From positions 1 to 64,000 of the forward strand of contig FAON01000005.1 in assembly GCA_001485605.1 (NCBI GenBank): a stretch of 64,000 bases of DNA. Direction: 5' to 3'. Below are positions 8,960 through 22,697 of this stretch, in pieces (positions within the stretch are counted from its first letter, which is position 1; each line of letters begins with the position of its first letter). This DNA comes from Candidatus Kryptobacter tengchongensis (GTDB taxonomy: Bacteria; Bacteroidota; Ignavibacteria; Kryptoniales; Kryptoniaceae). The notes beneath the pieces are model-generated. The model ran no database searches. It was not told where the DNA came from and was given only the letters and a program-made list of their open reading frames with translations. The position numbers and the translations under genes were made by a program.

Positions 8960-10435
8960 TTATTCCGACTTCATCGCTATTTGCTTTGTTGAAACAGCGT
9001 AGAAAAGGATGTTGGAGAAAAGTTGCAATTGTGGAGTGTTATCAATTGATGGATTGTCAAATTTGCTAAGCATTCGCATGTAACCTTTGTTTGAAAAAAC
9101 GATGACCAATCTTTTTTGCCAAAAGAGACCTTCAAGATATGTATACTTTTCCTCTCTTTCAAGTTCTTTTGTTTCAACGATATCATCAGCTCCGAGAGGT
9201 AGTTCTTTTATCTTTGCCCAGATGGAATAAATAGGATGGGAAAGGAAAATTTTTTCAATATAGCTTCCGTCAAATCTTGTTTTTATTTTATCAAGCAAAT
9301 CTCTTGCGCCGAGATTGAACTGGCTTGATCTTGAATGGCTAAGGTCATCAATTAAAATCACACCTCCATTTTTTATACATGATACGAAATTATCAATTGC
9401 AACTGGCGAAAATTGTGGTTTAACTACTCCGCCACTTATTACAACAAGTTCGGACTTAGCAACAGCTGGTGACTCAGCTCTTCCGCTTTCAAGAGAGATA
9501 TTTAAACCTTCTTTTTTATTTAGAAATTCAGCAAGATTTTTTAATCCAAGTTCAACGATCTCTTCGCCATCGCCTCCATATTTAACTTGAAAAATTTTTA
9601 TTTCTTTATTTTTCAGCGTTTTCAAATCAATGTTTTCACCACTAGCAGCGATAAGCTTTGTTGTCTCCTCAACCTTTCGGATCACCGGGATTCGTTTGAA
9701 ATAGAAGTTGATGTCAATAAAATTGCTTGGAACATTGTTCTCATCATAGCCAATTATAAAATTTTTCAAAACAACCTTTACCCGTTCAACTCCTTCAGAC
9801 AGCGGATCAAAAACTATCAGCCCTTCTCTGCTATCACCTTTATAAAGCGGGCGTCCATAAGTTAGCATTGTCCTTCTTGCTATTCCCATTCTTGCCTCAA
9901 AGACATCTTCATCAATCCCAGAAGAACCTTTCCTTGCACGATAATACTCCTCCAAACTATGAAATTTACTCGTCTTAGCATCAAGCCCGTATGCGATAAA
10001 TCTATCTCCACGATCACTTAACAAAATTGCATTTTCAGGATCAAAGTTTATTTTCGGTGCTGTGTAGTTATAAATTGAAACTTTAAAAACTGTAAAACGA
10101 TTCGGTGTATAACCAAGTTCAGGATCAACCCAATCACCATAGGTGTAGGGATTCGTTGAATAAATTCCACCTTTTGATTCCTCTGGAAACTCAAAATTGT
10201 TAAGTTGATAATCGCTCATATATTTAATTTCAACTTTAAAAGTTCCCTTATCAAAGACGATCGTCATTGAATCTTTCCCGATATAATAGCTTGTATCCCC
10301 GCTCATTTTCATCATCTCAATATCTGGAACAATTTCATATTCAACTTTTTGCGGTGGGAAGAAAAGGAAACGATAAACACTGTCACAACCGCTTAAGAGA
10401 AGAATCACGATAAATAGAAACAGGCTTTTTTTCAT
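8960..10435 (-). CDS. lipoprotein with C-terminal DUF4159 domain
   Basis: The lipobox start MKKSLFLFIVILLLSGC begins at 10435; the longer frame to 10483 adds 16 non-signal residues. Of about 491 residues, 30-270 form a beta-rich region shared with the lipoprotein gene just upstream (LIVFDPLSEGVERVKVVL matches LIVFKKPVEKVKWLLLI there). Residues about 320-480 resemble DUF4159, with the same landmarks as the TonB-like protein of this cluster: NGGVILIDD, LSHPIYSIW, YTYLEGLFWQKRLVIVFSNKGY and a final LQLFSNILFYA. It is the last gene of the nine-gene envelope cluster, so it probably acts in the periplasm with the TonB-like protein. Function unknown. Confidence 0.75.
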   Translation of the reverse strand: MKKSLFLFIVILLLSGCDSVYRFLFFPPQKVEYEIVPDIEMMKMSGDTSYYIGKDSMTIVFDKGTFKVEIKYMSDYQLNNFEFPEESKGGIYSTNPYTYGDWVDPELGYTPNRFTVFKVSIYNYTAPKINFDPENAILLSDRGDRFIAYGLDAKTSKFHSLEEYYRARKGSSGIDEDVFEARMGIARRTMLTYGRPLYKGDSREGLIVFDPLSEGVERVKVVLKNFIIGYDENNVPSNFIDINFYFKRIPVIRKVEETTKLIAASGENIDLKTLKNKEIKIFQVKYGGDGEEIVELGLKNLAEFLNKKEGLNISLESGRAESPAVAKSELVVISGGVVKPQFSPVAIDNFVSCIKNGGVILIDDLSHSRSSQFNLGARDLLDKIKTRFDGSYIEKIFLSHPIYSIWAKIKELPLGADDIVETKELEREEKYTYLEGLFWQKRLVIVFSNKGYMRMLSKFDNPSIDNTPQLQLFSNILFYAVSTKQIAMKSE

Positions 10436-10448
10436 TTCTTTGGCAAAT

Positions 10449-11285
10449 TTATTTTTCGCTGGAAAATTCAAATCTAAAGTCAACAGATTTTATTTTTTCG
10501 TTATTTTCATAAATTCCGATCTCAGGGATAATAAGCAAAAGCCATTTAACCTTTTCAACAGGTTTTTTGAAGACAATAAGACCTTTTCTAACAACGCCTG
10601 GATAAATTTTCTCGTCACGAAGTAAGATATCTCTCAAAAATTTTTTGTTAAGTTCCGCTCTCCTCTGCGTGCTTAAAAGATATCCAGCAAGAAATGGATC
10701 ATAGATTGTATATGGATTTACATATCTCATTGGATATGGTAACGATTCAGTTTGAATTATGTCCTCAACCTCAAGAGCTCTAAACTGGTTTCTTTTATCA
10801 TCAAGTAAAACACTTGCTGACGGCTTTATTTCTATTTTATCCTTTCGCAAATTTTCAACGGTGACATCAAAAATAAGGTAAGGGATTTTGCCAAAATCAT
10901 CTTCAAAGGGGCTTGGGAGATTTTGAGGTGATATCGGGTTTCCAAAAACATCATAGTAATTCCCATATTCTTGAATGTGGATATATTCATTGTAAGCTGA
11001 TAAAATTTCTGCGTTGTCATCCTGAGCATAATTTATGTATTCATCTTTTAAAATTTTTTCAAAATCTTTTTTCTCATATCTTTTGCCCGAACTTATTTTT
11101 CTTATTTCCGCTGGAGTTAGAAGTCTGACGCTTATTCTAACACTATCTTTTATAACAGTTGCAAGGGTTTCAGGTGCAACCAAAGTCGCTGTTGCAGGTT
11201 TACTTTGTTCTTCGTAATGATTCTCACTTAGGAAATAAGCACATCCCCAGAGTATAATAGCGAGGAATAAAAATTTAAACTTCAT
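10449..11285 (-). CDS. lipoprotein sharing a domain with its downstream neighbour
   Basis: The 278-residue product starts with MKFKFLFLAIILWGC, a lipobox ending at Cys15. GGAGG precedes the start. The mature part holds LIFDVTVENLRKDKIEIKPSAS and a late GVVRKGLIVFKKPVEKVKW, then IGIYENNEKIKSVDFRFEF. Both stretches have counterparts in the first half of the next lipoprotein (8960-10435), so the two are paralogues over this domain, but this one lacks DUF4159. It lies 13 bases before that gene and 36 bases after the TonB-like gene. No named family was recognised. Confidence 0.7.
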   Translation of the reverse strand: MKFKFLFLAIILWGCAYFLSENHYEEQSKPATATLVAPETLATVIKDSVRISVRLLTPAEIRKISSGKRYEKKDFEKILKDEYINYAQDDNAEILSAYNEYIHIQEYGNYYDVFGNPISPQNLPSPFEDDFGKIPYLIFDVTVENLRKDKIEIKPSASVLLDDKRNQFRALEVEDIIQTESLPYPMRYVNPYTIYDPFLAGYLLSTQRRAELNKKFLRDILLRDEKIYPGVVRKGLIVFKKPVEKVKWLLLIIPEIGIYENNEKIKSVDFRFEFSSEK

Positions 11286-11321: not shown

Positions 11322-12578
11322 TTACTGTTGCATTACAACTTTTTCTTTATTTTTTGCAACGATCCCGCCTGGTTGATTCATTGCAAAGATAAGTATATTC
11401 AAGCCCATCTGTAGTTGCCTTGAATTATCAAGTGGCGGTGTTGTATATGGCCAGTCGCCCCATGCTTGAGTATATCCACGATTTGACAATACAACCGCAA
11501 GTCGTCCGCCAAGCCAAATTCCCTCAAGATAGTTGTAAATCTCGCGTGCCGGTCTTCTTGAATCAACCCTTGCAAGATCATCTCCAGCTGGTGGACCATC
11601 AAAATCCTTCCAGATATGATAGATTGGGTGATTGTTGGGGATTCTTTCCCAGACGGCATCATAACCAAGGGCATCGTGAATTAGCTGTTTCACAGACCTT
11701 GTAAATGGACCATAAGCAGATGCAAGACCATCATCAATAAATAAAAATCCGCCCGACCGAAGGTATTTAGCGAGATTTTCCACTTCATTTTTCGTGTAGA
11801 TTACCTCGCCATCATATCCCATCATTATGAGGATTGGCACATCCATGATATTTTTTGAATCAAGGCGAATTGAACCCACAAGATTAAGTTGAAGATTTGG
11901 CAAGACCTCCATAGCATATCTTTGAAGATTCTGTAAAGCAGCGGGTCTATAATTCCACATCGGTTCACCATTTGGGGCTGATTTACTACTTCTATACTCA
12001 ACTTGATAAACATTCAAAAATCCCCTCCAATCTTCTTTGCTTCTCCCTCGTTCAAGCCATCCTTCAAATCTGTCCATAAAGTTTGTGTAACTTATCAATT
12101 CCTCCTGTAAACTTTTTATGGTTCTTCCTGCATGGCGTGTATCAGTTATATCATAATTTAAACTTGGTCCGATCAACATCGCTGGTGGCGAGTAAGTTCT
12201 CTCAACATATTCGCCCGGTCTTGCAAGCGAGGCGAGAGCTGTCCCGCCGTGAACAGCGGCGGTTGTCATTGACCTTGCGGACATCCGCGGTTTTTGAGGT
12301 GCTACAAACTTTTGAAGAACCCGTTCCACTATCGTCGGCATTTTCCTAAATTCAATGCTTTTTGTCAACCGCGGAGGTCTCTGGATGAATTTAACAGTTG
12401 TCGGCGGACGTTTGATTTCCTTCTTCTCTGGTAATTTTATATTCAAAATTACAGGGATACTGTGAATCAGAAACGCGATCAAAAGAAACTTTAACAACGC
12501 TCTCCTGTTCTCATAAATGAACTGAGCTATCCTATCGCTTAATTCAATCCCTGGTATTTTATAATTTCCTCTTTCCAT
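11322..12578 (-). CDS. TonB-like membrane anchor fused to DUF4159
   Basis: The 418-residue product has a short basic cytoplasmic end, one membrane segment at about residues 28-46 (LLKFLLIAFLIHSIPVIL) and then a TonB-like proline/basic stretch (LPEKKEIKRPPTTVKFIQRPPRL). His39 lies inside the membrane segment at the place where TonB has its essential His20 (SVCIHGAVV). Instead of the TonB C-terminal domain, residues about 220-400 are DUF4159: VPILIMMGYDGEVIY, LRSGGFLFIDDG, NHPIYHIWKDFDGPPAGDD, YLEGIWLGGRLAVVLSNRGY and a final LQMGLNILIFAM. It directly follows exbB and exbD (six bases after exbD). I infer it is the force-transducing partner of this ExbBD pair. Confidence 0.8.
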   Translation of the reverse strand: MERGNYKIPGIELSDRIAQFIYENRRALLKFLLIAFLIHSIPVILNIKLPEKKEIKRPPTTVKFIQRPPRLTKSIEFRKMPTIVERVLQKFVAPQKPRMSARSMTTAAVHGGTALASLARPGEYVERTYSPPAMLIGPSLNYDITDTRHAGRTIKSLQEELISYTNFMDRFEGWLERGRSKEDWRGFLNVYQVEYRSSKSAPNGEPMWNYRPAALQNLQRYAMEVLPNLQLNLVGSIRLDSKNIMDVPILIMMGYDGEVIYTKNEVENLAKYLRSGGFLFIDDGLASAYGPFTRSVKQLIHDALGYDAVWERIPNNHPIYHIWKDFDGPPAGDDLARVDSRRPAREIYNYLEGIWLGGRLAVVLSNRGYTQAWGDWPYTTPPLDNSRQLQMGLNILIFAMNQPGGIVAKNKEKVVMQQ

Positions 12579-12584
12579 CTTGAA

Positions 12585-13007
12585 TCATTTAATCTGAATT
12601 TCTTCCTCTTCCTTTTCAGTAGCTATGGCAAGCTGATCAATGCCACATAGCTTTGCGATGTCCATAACTTTTACAACTATTCCATGCAATGTTTTCTTGT
12701 CTGCCTTGATTATCAAAACCTTGCTTCCGAATATCTCCTTATCTTTAAGCATCTCCTCCTGCAAGTTGTCAAATGTAACCCGTCTCCCATTTAAATCCAT
12801 CTCACCATTTGATGAAATAACGATTGTTAAATCTTTCTCTGGTGGAGCATCAGATGAAGCTGCAGTTGGAAGATCAACCTTTAAACCACTTTGAACCGCA
12901 AAGACAGTTGTGACCATGAAAAATATCAAAAGTTGGAAAACGCAGTCAATCATTGGTGTCAAGTTAATATCAACCGAATATTCGTTGTTTTTACCCTTTT
13001 TCTTCAT
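12585..13007 (-). CDS. exbD: ExbD/TolR-type proton-channel subunit
   Basis: The 140-residue product has the family form: a short basic N-terminus, one membrane helix with VDINLTPMIDCVFQLLIFFM and the proton-carrying aspartate at residue 21, then a periplasmic domain (LPTAASSDAPPEKDLTIVIS, VLIIKADKKTLHGIVVKVMDIA, and the usual final strand LAIATEKEE). It uses proton flow with ExbB to move a TonB-like partner. The gene lies 12 bases after exbB and six before the TonB-DUF4159 gene, so the three form one unit. Confidence 0.93.
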   Translation of the reverse strand: MKKKGKNNEYSVDINLTPMIDCVFQLLIFFMVTTVFAVQSGLKVDLPTAASSDAPPEKDLTIVISSNGEMDLNGRRVTFDNLQEEMLKDKEIFGSKVLIIKADKKTLHGIVVKVMDIAKLCGIDQLAIATEKEEEEIQIK

Positions 13008-13019
13008 TTTTAATGCGAG

Positions 13020-13880
13020 TTATTTTTTCTCTTTCAAATTCCTGATAACTTCATCCTCTATAAGTTTTGCTTCTTCATCTGAAATATCAAGCTCAATTCT
13101 TTTGCGTCTCAAATATTCCTTTTCATCCTCGGTCAGATCCCCATTTCTATAAATGCTGGCAACAATTGTCCTATAAGATTCAATCCTTCCATGTTCACGA
13201 AGAAGTGTATTAACGAAGTGGTTTTCAAACGGTTCAAGATGTTTTGTTATCTTTTCTGCCCGTCTTCTTAAAAAACTATACCCAAGAACAGATGGAATTG
13301 CAACTGTTAATCCTGCAGCAGTAGTTAAAAGGGCAACTGAAATTCCATGCGCTACGACCGCTGGATCTCCGCGTCCACCTTTTGCAAGTTCGTCAAAAGA
13401 CATTATCATACCAACTATAGTTCCAAAAAGCCCAAGCAATGTTGCAACATTTGCAATCGTAGCAACTATTGGCAAAAATTCCTCAAGATAATCCGATGTT
13501 GAATCAACTGCCGTTTCCATCAACTCCTGACGCATATCATTTATTGAACGATTTTCTTGAAGTAAAAACTCATACCTTTTCAAAACTGAAAGAAATACAA
13601 AAGAAAGCGCATCCTTTTTCTCCTCAAAATATCTAACAATTGGTTCAATCTTTTTGTTTTCCCTCAAGATTCCCTCCACCTCTTCAAGTATTTGAGCTAT
13701 TTTTTTATCCTTGGGAATTCGCAAATATCTGTAAATCCTTTCTATAATTATACCCATTGAAATTACCGAGAAAATAAAAAGAGGAACCATGATATAAGGT
13801 CCACCCTTGATGATGATATCAACAAGCCAGTTATCCCAGAGCCAAGACCACCAAGATTTTTGCTGAATTAGAAGCATCAT
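13020..13880 (-). CDS. exbB: ExbB/TolQ/MotA-family proton-channel protein
   Basis: The 286-residue product has three membrane helices: near residues 29-50 (IMVPLFIFSVISMGIIIERIY), 137-162 (ATIANVATLLGLFGTIVGMI) and 175-197 (GISVALLTTAAGLTVAIPSV). The last two carry the conserved small-residue and threonine pattern of the proton path. It has a charged C-terminal extension of about 50 residues (GDLTEDEKEYLRRKRIELD onward) beyond the usual family end. That extension may contact cytoplasmic partners. The gene order TPR, exbB, exbD, tonB-like supports a dedicated energiser for this cluster. Confidence 0.92.
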   Translation of the reverse strand: MMLLIQQKSWWSWLWDNWLVDIIIKGGPYIMVPLFIFSVISMGIIIERIYRYLRIPKDKKIAQILEEVEGILRENKKIEPIVRYFEEKKDALSFVFLSVLKRYEFLLQENRSINDMRQELMETAVDSTSDYLEEFLPIVATIANVATLLGLFGTIVGMIMSFDELAKGGRGDPAVVAHGISVALLTTAAGLTVAIPSVLGYSFLRRRAEKITKHLEPFENHFVNTLLREHGRIESYRTIVASIYRNGDLTEDEKEYLRRKRIELDISDEEAKLIEDEVIRNLKEKK

Positions 13881-13904: not shown

Positions 13905-16900
13905 TCAAAAATTAAAGTTACTTCTTAACCATTCAAGATGTTCCCTCGCAAACAGAACAGCGGCGCGCGCATTGTCATCTCTTGAATTTTCATAATCGCG
14001 AATTATTTCCTCATACATCTTTGCTGCCCTTCTCCAGTCACCAAGCTGTTCATAAGCAGCTGCTATATTTACACGACACCCGACAACTATATCTGAATCA
14101 GGATACTTCTCCCATATCTTTGTTAACTCCTCAATAGCACGCCGATAATCTTTATTATCAAAATACCTCATCGCTTCTTGATATTCAGCATAAACATTTA
14201 TAAGTTTTAAATCTTTTATTAACTGCTTCGCTTCTTCAGATTTTTCATGGTTAGGATACATTGCTATAAATTCTTCATACGCCTTTTGAGCTTTAGCGTA
14301 ATCTTTTGAATTATAATAATAATCTCCAATTGTAAAAAGTGCGATTGGGGCGTATTCACTTTGAGGATAACGCTTTACAAGAAGCTTGAAACTCTCTATC
14401 ATCTGCTCAGGTTTTTGAAGTTCATAATAACACCATCCCTCACTATAAAGTGCAACTGGTGCAAGCTCATCATTTGGATAAATTCTGTAAACATTTTTAT
14501 ATTCACGAATTGCTTCCTCATATTTACCCATGTTGTAATAAGACTCGCCAATGTTAAAATAAGCCTCTGGTGTTAGCTCATCTTTGGGGAATTCCTTTGC
14601 AAACCTCCTAAAATAAGTCACAGATTTATCCCAATACCCAAGTCTGAAATAAGAATACGAAAGGAAGAAAAGAGCGTTTTTATAGTTTTCAGAATTTTGG
14701 AAAAGTTTCAGGTATCTGTCAAAAATTTCAATTGCATTTTCATATTCACCTCTATCATAATAAACTGCACCAGTTGAAAAGAAAATTTCTTGGATAAATT
14801 TTGAATCTGGGAATTTCTCACCCGCTTTTGAAAGAATGTTAAATGCTTTATTAAATTCGCCAAGTTCTCTATGTGAGTTTGCGAGCACATATGTCGCTTT
14901 TGAAAATATAACCTCATCAGAAACATCACTTTGAAAAACATCATTTGCAAATCTGACCGCATTCTTATAATCTTTCGCCTCAAAATACGCCTCAGCAAGC
15001 ACAGCAGTATACCTAATTTTCTCCACGGGTTCTGAAGTTTCATTTATCAATTTTGAAACAAGATTTATACCCTTTTCAATTTGCCCGATCTTTACATAAG
15101 AAATCGCCAATTTTTCATTAACCTGCGTAACAAGCTGAGGTAAATTTTCTCTAAATTTTTTATCCAAGATACAACTTTGAAAATCAGAGATTGCTTCCTT
15201 ATATTGCCCAAGCTGATAATAAAGCGAACCACGAGCATAAATTGATTGAAGTTTCAATATATCATTCGCCTTCTGGTCATTTATAACAGCTGTTAATTCA
15301 CCGATCGCTTCTTTATATTTTTCCTGACCAATGTAAATATCCGCAAGTGAAAAACGAACTTCTGGAATGAAATAGATGCTATCTTTTAAAGCTTCAGCTG
15401 TTTTTAAAATATCCTTGATAAATCTTTCCCCCTCGGCAAATTTGTTCTGTAAGCTAAACGATTTGGACACTTTAATAAAAGCAGGCAAGTAAAAGTTTGA
15501 TCCAGGAGTGATCCGACTGAAAACATTTAATAAACTATCGTATTTCTGGGTATCAAAATAAGTCAAAAGGATATAATAATAAACCTCGTCTTTATTTAGA
15601 TTTGGTGGATTCTCAGAAAGCGTTCTGTTGAGTTCAACCAAAGCCTCATCATATCGTTTCCATTCATAATATGTTCTCCCAAGTTGAACACAAGCATGAG
15701 TATATTGCGGTGAATTTTTGTAGAGCGTTTTTATCTTAACAAATGAACTTTCAGCAAAAGCATATTCGCCCATAGCAAGGTGTGAAATCCCCTTGAAGAA
15801 GAGCATGTCAGGGATATAATCTGAGCCCGGGAATTTAATCAGAAATGAATCACATTCCGCTATTGTTTCCTTATACTTTTTTGCATTGTAAAGACATATA
15901 ATTTTTGAATATGTTGCATCTTCAACTGGGAAATCAATTAAAAAAGCGACCTCACCGTATGCTTTTATGTAAAAATCATATTCATTTGCTGCTTTATCGT
16001 AAACAAGGGAATCTTGAAATGTTTTGGCTATTAAATACTGCATCTTGGCTTGCAATTGCTTGTTCTCAAAACTTCTATCAATTGCCTCCTTATAGATAGC
16101 AATTCCAGCATCAAGCCCCCTTTTTTGAAGGACATACTCAGCCATTTTTATATAAGCTGTTTCAATTAAACTTGGAAGAAGCGTATAGGTTGATATGACA
16201 TTTCTGTATGATTTTACAGCTTCGTCAAACTCATTCATCATTTTATAGCAATCAGCGATTCTCAAGCTTGATTTTGCAACTATTTCAAGTGGTGTTTCCT
16301 CGCCTTCTCGTCCTGTCGCAGCTTCAAAAGCTTTTCTTTCTCTTATAGCTTTCAACTCAATTTTTTCAAATTCCTCTTTTTTAAATTTTTCAGGTCTAAA
16401 TTTTTCAACAACACTTTTGAACCAAATCAATGCAGTATCGTAATCTTCTTTATCATAATAATTTTGCCCAATTTGATACATTGAGTGAGGGGCAAGCTCA
16501 GAACGAGGAAACTTTTCCACAAGTGATTTAAAGTAGAAAATTGAACTATCAAGCATTTTCAATTCTTTGAATGCCCAACCTATAGTATAATACGCCTTTG
16601 GAACACGTTCATCGTTTGGGAATTTATTTATCAGTTTTTTTGACTCAGCTATTGCTTCCTCAAATTTGCCCTCCTCGTAATAAATATCAGCAATTTGATA
16701 CTGTGCTAAAGCCGAAAGCCAAGGTGAATCATTTCTCTGTTCGGCTACAATTTTAAAGTTTTCAATCGCTTCGGCGTTATTCTTTAACTTTCTCAAAGCA
16801 TTGCCTTTTTGATAATAAGCTGCGGTTTTCACGCTTACTATTAAATCCCCGTTGAAAAGGGCAACCTTTACACTATCGTCATTTAAAAGTTTGCTTTTAG

Positions 16901-17060
16901 TATTTATGATGAAGTCATATTGTTTTATCGCTTTTTTAAAATCACCGCTCGCATAAAAGTTTTGCCCTGAAGTGAAAGCCTTTTGTAACTCAAGCGGTGT
17001 CGGAACGAAGTTAGCAACTATTGAAGCGGTTAATGTAACTATGATGATTATCTTCCACAT
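13905..17060 (-). CDS. large TPR-repeat protein, exported or membrane-anchored
   Basis: The 1051-residue product has an N-terminal hydrophobic signal or anchor (MWKIIIIVTLTASIVANF), then tetratricopeptide-type repeats along nearly its whole length. Typical units are QYQIADIYYEEGKFEEAIAE near residue 115 and FNIGESYYNMGKYEEAIREY near residue 855. Many units end in FP or YP plus DE or NS, the YbgF/Bam-type periplasmic TPR signature. At least twenty repeats can be counted roughly. It probably forms a long periplasmic scaffold between the ExbBD/TonB-like complex and the outer-membrane proteins of the cluster. The gene starts 18 bases after the upstream outer-membrane gene stops. Confidence 0.85.
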   Translation of the reverse strand: MWKIIIIVTLTASIVANFVPTPLELQKAFTSGQNFYASGDFKKAIKQYDFIINTKSKLLNDDSVKVALFNGDLIVSVKTAAYYQKGNALRKLKNNAEAIENFKIVAEQRNDSPWLSALAQYQIADIYYEEGKFEEAIAESKKLINKFPNDERVPKAYYTIGWAFKELKMLDSSIFYFKSLVEKFPRSELAPHSMYQIGQNYYDKEDYDTALIWFKSVVEKFRPEKFKKEEFEKIELKAIRERKAFEAATGREGEETPLEIVAKSSLRIADCYKMMNEFDEAVKSYRNVISTYTLLPSLIETAYIKMAEYVLQKRGLDAGIAIYKEAIDRSFENKQLQAKMQYLIAKTFQDSLVYDKAANEYDFYIKAYGEVAFLIDFPVEDATYSKIICLYNAKKYKETIAECDSFLIKFPGSDYIPDMLFFKGISHLAMGEYAFAESSFVKIKTLYKNSPQYTHACVQLGRTYYEWKRYDEALVELNRTLSENPPNLNKDEVYYYILLTYFDTQKYDSLLNVFSRITPGSNFYLPAFIKVSKSFSLQNKFAEGERFIKDILKTAEALKDSIYFIPEVRFSLADIYIGQEKYKEAIGELTAVINDQKANDILKLQSIYARGSLYYQLGQYKEAISDFQSCILDKKFRENLPQLVTQVNEKLAISYVKIGQIEKGINLVSKLINETSEPVEKIRYTAVLAEAYFEAKDYKNAVRFANDVFQSDVSDEVIFSKATYVLANSHRELGEFNKAFNILSKAGEKFPDSKFIQEIFFSTGAVYYDRGEYENAIEIFDRYLKLFQNSENYKNALFFLSYSYFRLGYWDKSVTYFRRFAKEFPKDELTPEAYFNIGESYYNMGKYEEAIREYKNVYRIYPNDELAPVALYSEGWCYYELQKPEQMIESFKLLVKRYPQSEYAPIALFTIGDYYYNSKDYAKAQKAYEEFIAMYPNHEKSEEAKQLIKDLKLINVYAEYQEAMRYFDNKDYRRAIEELTKIWEKYPDSDIVVGCRVNIAAAYEQLGDWRRAAKMYEEIIRDYENSRDDNARAAVLFAREHLEWLRSNFNF

Positions 17061-20060: not shown

Positions 20061-20981
20061 TTATAAATTAAATTCAAAACTAAATTTATGACTACCGCCT
20101 GCGTCGGGTATCTCAAATTGATGAACATATACATAGTCAATCCTAAATTTCCAGTATTTTATCCCGAATCCTGGATTTAAACTTGCCTGTTTCCCGCCAT
20201 CTACTATCGCTCCACCCGAGGCTCTGATAACAAACTCAAAATCACTTTTCAAAAATTCAGATGAAAAAGCCTTAATTTCAAATCCAGCATCAATTTTTAG
20301 ATCATAATCAGATTTTAAAACCCCTAAACCTATTTGATAATTGTAAGTTCTTGATTCATATACGATCCCGCCAGCAATCTCCAGAGGTAATTTCGCATCA
20401 CTTGATTTATTCAGTGCGATGCTCGGTTGAGTTATATTTCTTGCGGTTAGCCCAAAGCGCAAATCAGAACCATTTACAAAATCATTCCATACAAAAATTG
20501 CCCCAGCATCAAATGTAAAACCAAAATACGAATAAGCAGATTCACCAACAGGTGCAACAGCAGACCATCTTAAAAGTTTAAAATTCCCACCTATTGATAA
20601 ACCTTTGATGTATTTAAACTCTCTTGCAACCGAGAAAATAAGTTGATTTTCACTCCACATCCCTGTTTTAAAATATGAAACTCCAACCCCGAAGTCAAAA
20701 ATTGAAAAGATAGGCAATACCCCAGCCAAGGTTACGTAGTAAAGGTTTTCATCCTGCACAAATGGATAAAGCCGTGAGTAAGTTGAAGCAAAACTAAATT
20801 TTCTTATCTGTCCAATTCCAGCGGGATTATAAAACATACCGTATGGATTATCGGCAACTGCAACATAAGCCAAACCAAAAGAAACAGCCCGAGCCCCGTT
20901 GCCAAGGTCCTTGAAGGCTCCAGAAATCGCAAAATCAAAATGCAATGATATTAACACTATTGACAGGATAAATTTTCTCAT
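20061..20981 (-). CDS. PorV/PorQ-like outer-membrane protein (UPF0164-type)
   Basis: The 306-residue product has a signal peptide (MRKFILSIVLISLHFDFAISG), then the family opening AFKDLGNGARAVSFGLAYVAVADNPYGMFYNPAGI. There the N-P-A-G motif follows the GARAxxxG(xAxVA)xAxD pattern seen in PorV, PorQ and FadL-like proteins. It continues as alternating beta-strands to a C-terminal FSFEFNL. PorV shuttles sorting-domain cargo in type IX secretion. Here it lies directly after a gene for a protein with a sorting-type C-terminus, so a cargo-partner pair is plausible. It could instead be a cluster-specific barrel. Confidence 0.75.
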   Translation of the reverse strand: MRKFILSIVLISLHFDFAISGAFKDLGNGARAVSFGLAYVAVADNPYGMFYNPAGIGQIRKFSFASTYSRLYPFVQDENLYYVTLAGVLPIFSIFDFGVGVSYFKTGMWSENQLIFSVAREFKYIKGLSIGGNFKLLRWSAVAPVGESAYSYFGFTFDAGAIFVWNDFVNGSDLRFGLTARNITQPSIALNKSSDAKLPLEIAGGIVYESRTYNYQIGLGVLKSDYDLKIDAGFEIKAFSSEFLKSDFEFVIRASGGAIVDGGKQASLNPGFGIKYWKFRIDYVYVHQFEIPDAGGSHKFSFEFNL

Positions 20982-21002: not shown

Positions 21003-22661
21003 TCAATAAACGACTGTTATAGTTTTAAAGACTGACTCAACACCAGTATCTGCATTTATCGCAACTCTCAAAAGATAAACACCAGGTCTCACAAGCCTCC
21101 CATTTTCATCCCTTCCATCCCATGTGAAAGAATTTGAAGAAATATAGGCAAATGCTTTGCTTTGCCCATCAAAAATTGTTTTGATAAGCCTACCCGTAAG
21201 ATCAAAAATCTGGATCTTTAAATTTCTCTCAACTAAAAGATTCGCCAGGAAGAAACTTATCTGAGTTTTATCATTTAAACCATCACCATTTGGAGAAAAT
21301 GGATTGGGATTGATCTGGAGGTCAACTATCAATCTTTCTGGAACATCTGTTGTTAAAACAGTCCAACTATTTAGATTGCCTCTTTTTCTCGTATCAACAA
21401 ATTGTGGATTTGACGCCGTCATTTTGCTTATCACAACCGATGGGAATTCATTTATATCAAGGTAAAGCGTTAAACTTAACTTAACACTTATTCTGGAGCT
21501 TGAATTAATTGATTGTTGAAATGCTATTTTTACATATTCTGGAGACGATATAACTGAATAAGCAACGGGATTCCCATTTAAAGTGACTGATTCAACATTT
21601 GCAGGTGATGGGGTAAATATAATTAGTGTATCAATTCCAAGAGAATTATCATCAACTTCAACATCAAAATTGCAAGTTATTTCAGTCCTTTTTAAAATTG
21701 GGACAACTGAGGGTTCAACCTCAAGGGTAATACTTTTAGCAACGAGCTTTTTATGGTAAAAAATTGAAAGCCTTTTTAAGATGGGTGTTTCAGTGCTTGA
21801 AGTGGATAAATTTACTTTGAATTGGATGTAACGCCTTGGCTCGGTTACCTTCAAAACCTCAAAACTTGAAATTTCAGGGGACCATTGACTCCAGGTATCA
21901 TTAACGCTTGGGCTTGAACCTGTTCTAAATTGGAAAGTTATTCCCGTGCCCTCAGGTAGTTCAGCTTCCCACTCAGCCCAACCCCAATTAACAGGCTGTC
22001 CAACATCAATGACCTTTGAATAATACTCCCCCGATGATAAATACCCAACACCGTATACTTCTATCTCAGCTATAACAGTTGAACTAAATCTATCAACAAC
22101 ATCAAAACTAATTTTAACAAATCTTGCAATTATTGGGTCAAAAATATCAAGTGTTTTAACATCTTGATTATCCGTCTTTTGAACGATTCTGGTAAGTTGA
22201 AGTGAATCAATGCCAGCGTAAATTGTATAAGCCCTTGGTCTAAGGGATTGGTTCAGACCAAAAGTTATAATCACAACCTTATTAATTCTTCTTAAAGCAA
22301 GCAAATCAATCAAAATGTAGCTACCATCTCCACCAGGTCTTATCTGACAAAATGTTCTACTATCACCATCAATTACTTTCATCGGGTTTCCAGTTACAGT
22401 ATCTCTGTCCCCTGTAGAGGTTTTCGGCTCACCAGTTCCATAGTAAGTTATAGTTGCCCTTCTCTTTTTAGCAAGATTTTCCTGCTCACTTGTCTTTAGA
22501 ATTAAATAATCAGAAGAGTTAGTAACATCAACTCCTTGACTTAATGTGCTATCAATAAAGCTGGAAAACTTTGAAATAACAATAGTATCTGGGGGGATTT
22601 GGGAACTGGCGAATGTGATAAGGGTTATTGAGAAAACTAAAATAAGCATCAAACGGTGCAT
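21003..22661 (-). CDS. exported protein with discoidin-like region and FlgD/gliding-type C-terminal domain
   Basis: The start at 22661 is chosen because the promoter at 22698-22727 puts the transcript start near 22690, and because the signal peptide MHRLMLILVFSITLITFASSQ begins there. The product has about 552 residues. Residues about 75-200 look like an F5/8-type (discoidin) galactose-binding fold: NPMKVIDGDSRTFCQIRPGG, then RFVKISFDVVD and IAEIEVYGVGYL. The end is a sorting-type Ig module: INPNPFSPNGDGLNDKTQIS, IFDLTGRLIKTIFDG, FTWDGRDENGRLVRPGVYLL. It is the first gene of the nine-gene cluster and is probably displayed at the cell surface, where it may bind polysaccharide. Confidence 0.75.
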   Translation of the reverse strand: MHRLMLILVFSITLITFASSQIPPDTIVISKFSSFIDSTLSQGVDVTNSSDYLILKTSEQENLAKKRRATITYYGTGEPKTSTGDRDTVTGNPMKVIDGDSRTFCQIRPGGDGSYILIDLLALRRINKVVIITFGLNQSLRPRAYTIYAGIDSLQLTRIVQKTDNQDVKTLDIFDPIIARFVKISFDVVDRFSSTVIAEIEVYGVGYLSSGEYYSKVIDVGQPVNWGWAEWEAELPEGTGITFQFRTGSSPSVNDTWSQWSPEISSFEVLKVTEPRRYIQFKVNLSTSSTETPILKRLSIFYHKKLVAKSITLEVEPSVVPILKRTEITCNFDVEVDDNSLGIDTLIIFTPSPANVESVTLNGNPVAYSVISSPEYVKIAFQQSINSSSRISVKLSLTLYLDINEFPSVVISKMTASNPQFVDTRKRGNLNSWTVLTTDVPERLIVDLQINPNPFSPNGDGLNDKTQISFFLANLLVERNLKIQIFDLTGRLIKTIFDGQSKAFAYISSNSFTWDGRDENGRLVRPGVYLLRVAINADTGVESVFKTITVVY

Positions 22662-22697
22662 AATTTCAAGTAGAATATCTTTGCTATTCAATTGTTT

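Follow-up and report, generated by a model that had tools for sequence, protein, structure and literature searches.

A 418-residue protein of Candidatus Kryptobacter tengchongensis is likely to be a TonB-like force transducer for a dedicated outer-membrane complex, using a DUF4159 domain as its binding head and the ExbBD motor as its source of power. The gene is located in a window of 64,000 nucleotides (the whole stretch of DNA analyzed, contig FAON01000005.1, positions 1 to 64,000), in an operon that also encodes a putative outer-membrane β-barrel (Table 1). We infer the binding to ExbB and ExbD, the transmission of force and the gripped partner with its cargo from the architecture of the protein, the invariant histidine of its helix, the likeness of its N-terminus to TonB, the linkage to motor genes and co-occurrence with the barrel.

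The operon and the architecture of the putative transducer

The genes follow one another on the minus strand in the order exbB, exbD and transducer, with intergenic gaps of 12 and 6 bases, so that the protein stands directly after exbB and exbD, as had been noted in the preliminary description of this DNA. The operon is tight, with gaps of 6–24 bases from the F5/8 type C gene through the transducer. The product of the exbB gene scores higher against the TolQ profile than against that of ExbB (113.6 vs. 66.5 bits). The TPR protein is retained in those orthologous clusters that extend far enough, and the second DUF4159 gene also occurs in orthologous clusters. A third DUF4159 gene of the same genome stands alone.

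Table 1. Features of the transducer gene and of the surrounding operon, with window coordinates.
Feature	Coordinates	Strand	Basis
Second DUF4159 protein, lipobox (LLSGC)	8960..10483	-	PF13709, 29.5 bits
Lipoprotein-like protein, 278 aa	10449..11285	-	seen only in the window's own family
TonB-like transducer with DUF4159 head, 418 aa (putative)	11322..12578	-	Pfam, predicted structure, orthologue alignment
DUF4159 domain, residues 205-400	11379..11966	-	PF13709; fold match to 4i66, Z 21.9
Disordered proline/basic linker, residues 45-161	12096..12446	-	mostly pLDDT <50
Proline-flanked strand PPTTVKFIQRPP, residues 58-69, D-box/motor-box-like	12372..12407	-	pattern comparison; PP conserved in orthologues
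Membrane helix, residues 25-44	12447..12506	-	AlphaFold2 helix; orthologue alignment
His39 codon, counterpart of TonB His20	12462..12464	-	sole invariant helix column
ExbD/TolR, proton-binding Asp in TPMID motif	12585..13007	-	PF02472, 109 bits; alignment to solved ExbD
ExbB/TolQ	13020..13880	-	PF01618 (MotA_ExbB), 105 bits
Large TPR protein, 1051 aa, N-terminal hydrophobic anchor	13905..17060	-	partial SprE/PorW-like match
Outer-membrane β-barrel-like protein, 991 aa	17079..20054	-	co-occurrence, strands, structural matches
PorV/PorQ-like outer-membrane protein	20061..20981	-	NF033709, 56 bits, below cut-off of 90
F5/8 type C domain and type IX C-terminal signal-like domain	21003..22691	-	PF00754, 35.2 bits; PF13585, 30.3 bits

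The transducer had been described as a TonB-type helix with a proline/basic linker, ending in DUF4159 in place of the TonB C-terminal domain. The predicted helix and the long disordered segment that follows it agree with the first part, and Pfam bears out the second: DUF4159 scores 76.6 bits (curated cut-off 25.9) and is mostly modelled at a pLDDT of about 90 by AlphaFold2. Nothing besides DUF4159 was found by Pfam on the transducer, the TonB C-terminal domain (PF03544) included, and a TonB_C search of the genome returned matches at other places, none of them on this gene.

Likeness of the N-terminus to TonB

In TonB, Ser16 and His20 are the residues that contact ExbB (PMC12215075). The histidine had been placed at the His20 position from a single sequence, and its homologues carry it without exception: it is invariant in an alignment of 28 orthologues from five families of the class (f1, f48, f12, f3 and f9), and in all 15 members of the non-redundant subset left after sequences more than 80% identical were dropped. 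Within this subset no other column of the helix is invariant, and the mean pairwise identity of the helix is 27%. The counterpart of Ser16, at position -4, is Ser in nine of these sequences and Ala in six (the window's transducer has Ala four residues before His39), and no third residue occurs there in the full set of orthologues; position -13 is only ever Lys or Arg. The N-terminal anchor of the neighbouring TPR protein, used as a control, shows no conserved histidine. Judged from these alignments, the conservation of the transducer histidine exceeds chance.

A profile of the transducer N-termini was also compared with one of canonical TonBs, whose N-termini were taken from exbB-exbD-exbD-tonB loci within the class. 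In the local profile alignment, which scored 32.9, the two histidines coincide, as do the PP motifs, and the strand after the helix is in register; when the columns were shuffled in blocks 200 times, the best score was 29.2, and none was as good (0/200). Since the profile matches TonB N-termini with all three elements in register, the sequences support the view that the transducer helix is not a generic anchor. The strand itself, PPTTVKFIQRPP, bears a suggestive resemblance to the D-box, which in E. coli TonB is a strand flanked by prolines and captured by ExbD (PMC10907165). Its proline-flanked TTVKFIQ agrees with the D-box pattern at six of seven positions, judged by eye, and lies 23 residues from the histidine vs. 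27 in E. coli TonB, counted by hand.

Motor genes

The transducer is linked to exbBD in four of the five families (f1, f48, f12 and f3), in three arrangements. Families f1 and f48, with some of f12, show the order TPR-exbB-exbD-transducer; in two f12 genomes the order is transducer-exbB-exbD-exbD-PstS-like; and in f3 genomes an exbB-exbD-exbD set stands at the distant upstream end of the cluster. The f9 clusters contain no exbBD, although their transducers still keep the histidine. Linkage to exbBD, which had been singled out as a check on the proposal, is thus conserved in four families and absent from the fifth; neither this pattern nor that of the histidine refutes the proposal. The ExbD genes of f9 genomes lie elsewhere, mostly beside a canonical TonB_C gene and otherwise near Tol-type TonB_C matches.

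The contact serine of ExbB is kept in all 17 aligned cluster ExbBs. At the position of the tryptophan through which E. coli ExbB touches TonB, they have Met, Leu, Phe or Ile; this tryptophan is absent as well from the canonical Ton ExbBs of the class. In the ExbB tree, the f12b and f3 motors group with canonical Ton motors, apart from the window's type, a topology that favours two motor lineages among the cluster ExbBs. The alternative that all cluster motors form one clade is not rejected (AU p 0.146), and a clean motor swap was dropped as a reading of the tree on this value. Two further loci of the same genome were noted: a canonical TonB on contig C1 (L156:3641-4315) without a histidine in its membrane helix, a type that recurs in other genomes of the class, and an exbB-exbD-exbD set on contig C9 (L159:7150-8830) with no adjoining transducer.

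The DUF4159 head

The best structural match of the head is the solved DUF4159 protein Hoch_4089 (4i66), compared by fold only (Z 21.9 over 186 residues, 2.2 Å). The next matches are far weaker (Z of about 8–9) and are class I glutamine-amidotransferase-like folds, such as IFT52, ThuA and PurQ. There is no cysteine in the whole 418-residue transducer, so that the nucleophile of class I glutamine amidotransferases is absent and the glutaminase chemistry of the fold is therefore excluded. Because the modelled domain has this fold and no cysteine, DUF4159 is probably a non-catalytic binding head. Acidic and aromatic residues of the domain are strongly conserved among the orthologues, including two Asp after a central strand. 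DUF4159 was not named in the literature searched.

Stand-alone DUF4159 proteins that were read have no TonB-type anchor, no linker and no exbBD neighbours, unlike the transducer. At one locus (L137:4670-8764) such a gene lies directly upstream of a gene for a 1126-aa membrane protein, with a similar pair in L145, and in L141 the MoxR-, DUF58- and BatA-like genes come after a gene that is DUF4159-like. A DUF4159 gene in a Corynebacterium plasmid record (NZ_CP015623.1:129773-130351) is 53% identical to the stand-alone copy of Kryptonia; the domain is odd for Corynebacterium, and contamination of the record is possible.

Full-length transducers were found only within the class in a profile search of 247 genomes of the phylum. 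The 35 loci recovered from GTDB genome contigs with two peptide patterns belong to Kryptonia, Ignavibacteria or broadly named Bacteroidetes or bacterial bins, and the plasmid records yielded only DUF4159 regions, with the N-terminal half of the transducer not found in them. Among the genomes searched, the DUF4159-headed transducer so far appears restricted to Kryptonia and Ignavibacteria.

A candidate outer-membrane partner

What does the head bind? The transducer and the 991-aa barrel-like protein were searched in the same 294 genomes of the class: both are present in an identical set of 29, which do not count as independent events because the two genes share an operon, and both are absent from the other 265. 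The 991-aa protein ends in a C-terminal Phe and shows a signal helix as well as long amphipathic strands. It was modelled poorly (mean pLDDT 51), and its structural matches, although nearly all outer-membrane proteins, are of low confidence; Pfam assigns it to no family and finds no recognised SprA or TonB-dependent receptor domain. Its fold family is not named here, since the model is poor and the matches are too weak. Given its presence in the same 29 genomes and the predominance of outer-membrane proteins among its matches, the putative barrel is the strongest candidate for the transducer's contact at the outer membrane. The DUF4159 lipoprotein of the operon may, as a guess, be a handshake partner of the transducer head. 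In two f9 clusters (L083:11031-13733 and L086:14577-16487), type IX cargo with cell-wall amidase domains lies near the TPR-transducer pair.

Comparison with known systems

The transducer shares with TonB the N-terminal helix with its histidine, Ser or Ala at position -4, a basic residue before the helix, a β-prone proline-flanked strand after it, the disordered linker and the linkage to exbBD. It differs in carrying DUF4159 in place of the receptor-binding PF03544, and its likely partner is a barrel without a recognised TonB-dependent receptor domain.

A closer parallel was described in 2025, in force transducers with a TonB-type helix and a vWA head, encoded beside motor and TPR genes (PMC12204202). 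These proteins likewise combine a TonB/TolA-type helix bearing the histidine, a linker and a foreign C-terminal domain, in synteny with tolQ/tolR-like and TPR genes. The preliminary description had predicted, from the window's protein, a new output for ExbBD motors; the DUF4159 head would be a new variant, whereas the idea of a foreign head was already published with the vWA proteins. The head of the transducer is a DUF4159 domain of glutamine-amidotransferase-like fold, no vWA domain being found by Pfam, and the candidate outer-membrane partner of the window's cluster was identified by strict co-occurrence.

As a set, a large barrel, a PorV-like protein, a TPR protein and a proton-driven motor resemble type IX secretion (SprA-PorV-SprE and GldLM). 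In the window's cluster, however, the motor consists of ExbBD and a TonB-like arm, and the barrel is not SprA, which is encoded by a separate gene of the same genome (contig C10, an open frame of 2206 aa) and was found in 19 of 19 genomes of the class tested. No GldM was found with the NCBIfam model in the class genomes tested, while two control genomes from other families score 499-623 bits. A locus on the same contig (C10:24582-25757) was noted alongside this presence of SprA without a detected GldM. General replacement of GldLM by the window's motor in type IX secretion was considered and dropped, because SprA is present in all class genomes tested and the cluster in only a tenth.

Proposed mechanism and alternatives

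The N-terminal helix would pack against ExbB via His39, with the stretch after it placed to touch the periplasmic domain of ExbD. The long flexible linker would take the non-catalytic DUF4159 head across the periplasm, where proton flow through ExbB-ExbD is predicted to pull or otherwise move it. The head may then grip a dedicated complex, in which the 991-aa barrel is joined by the PorV-like protein, the TPR protein and the DUF4159 lipoprotein; in this way it would energise transport or assembly at the outer membrane. A more elaborate version, which we regard as doubtful, is a separate proton-driven machine for translocation across the outer membrane: ExbBD and the DUF4159 arm would drive the PorV-associated barrel, held by the SprE-like TPR protein, while the DUF4159 heads of arm and lipoprotein would shake hands across the periplasm.

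The helix could instead be a mere signal anchor for a periplasmic DUF4159 domain, the neighbouring exbBD having clients of its own. Single hydrophobic helices are easily aligned and the f9 cluster does without exbBD, yet an explanation is required for a histidine that is buried in the helix and that all 28 orthologues keep, the more so when the TPR anchor of the same operon has none. With motor linkage in three differing arrangements and the in-register match to TonB added to this, such an anchor, which had been named beforehand as a possible refutation, is unlikely. Occupation of the TonB site could also mean regulation, with DUF4159 sensing a ligand or load and gating an ExbBD that mainly serves other TonBs. 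Orphan canonical TonBs exist in the same genome, and the only motors of f9 genomes adjoin other transducers. However, the other TonB_C proteins of the genome that were read lack the helix histidine and would therefore be poor clients of the window's motor, and the obligate barrel partner indicates a dedicated output; we consider regulation quite improbable.

It is very unlikely that DUF4159 is a motor-tethered enzyme, of hydrolase or amidotransferase type, whose access to a substrate such as the cell wall is controlled by proton flow. The fold shared with class I glutamine amidotransferases and ThuA would suit it, as would the conserved acidic and aromatic residues with the two Asp, and some f9 clusters adjoin secreted cell-wall amidases; but the protein has no glutaminase nucleophile, and related folds act as binding domains in IFT52.

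Concluding remarks

Since helix, linker and motor/TPR synteny are already known from the vWA-headed class, DUF4159 adds a second type of head to this motor module, here with a candidate partner set. DUF4159, a domain without known function, thereby gains a concrete role that can be tested, that of head on a motor-driven arm, and the likely outer-membrane partner of that arm can now be named. Along with the vWA transducers, this case points to the ExbBD/TolQR motor as a general module that takes different heads, and further envelope machines may turn up through searches for the TonB-type helix, not the TonB C-terminal domain. In hot-spring Kryptonia and some related Ignavibacteria, the findings suggest a previously undescribed motor-driven machine of the outer membrane.
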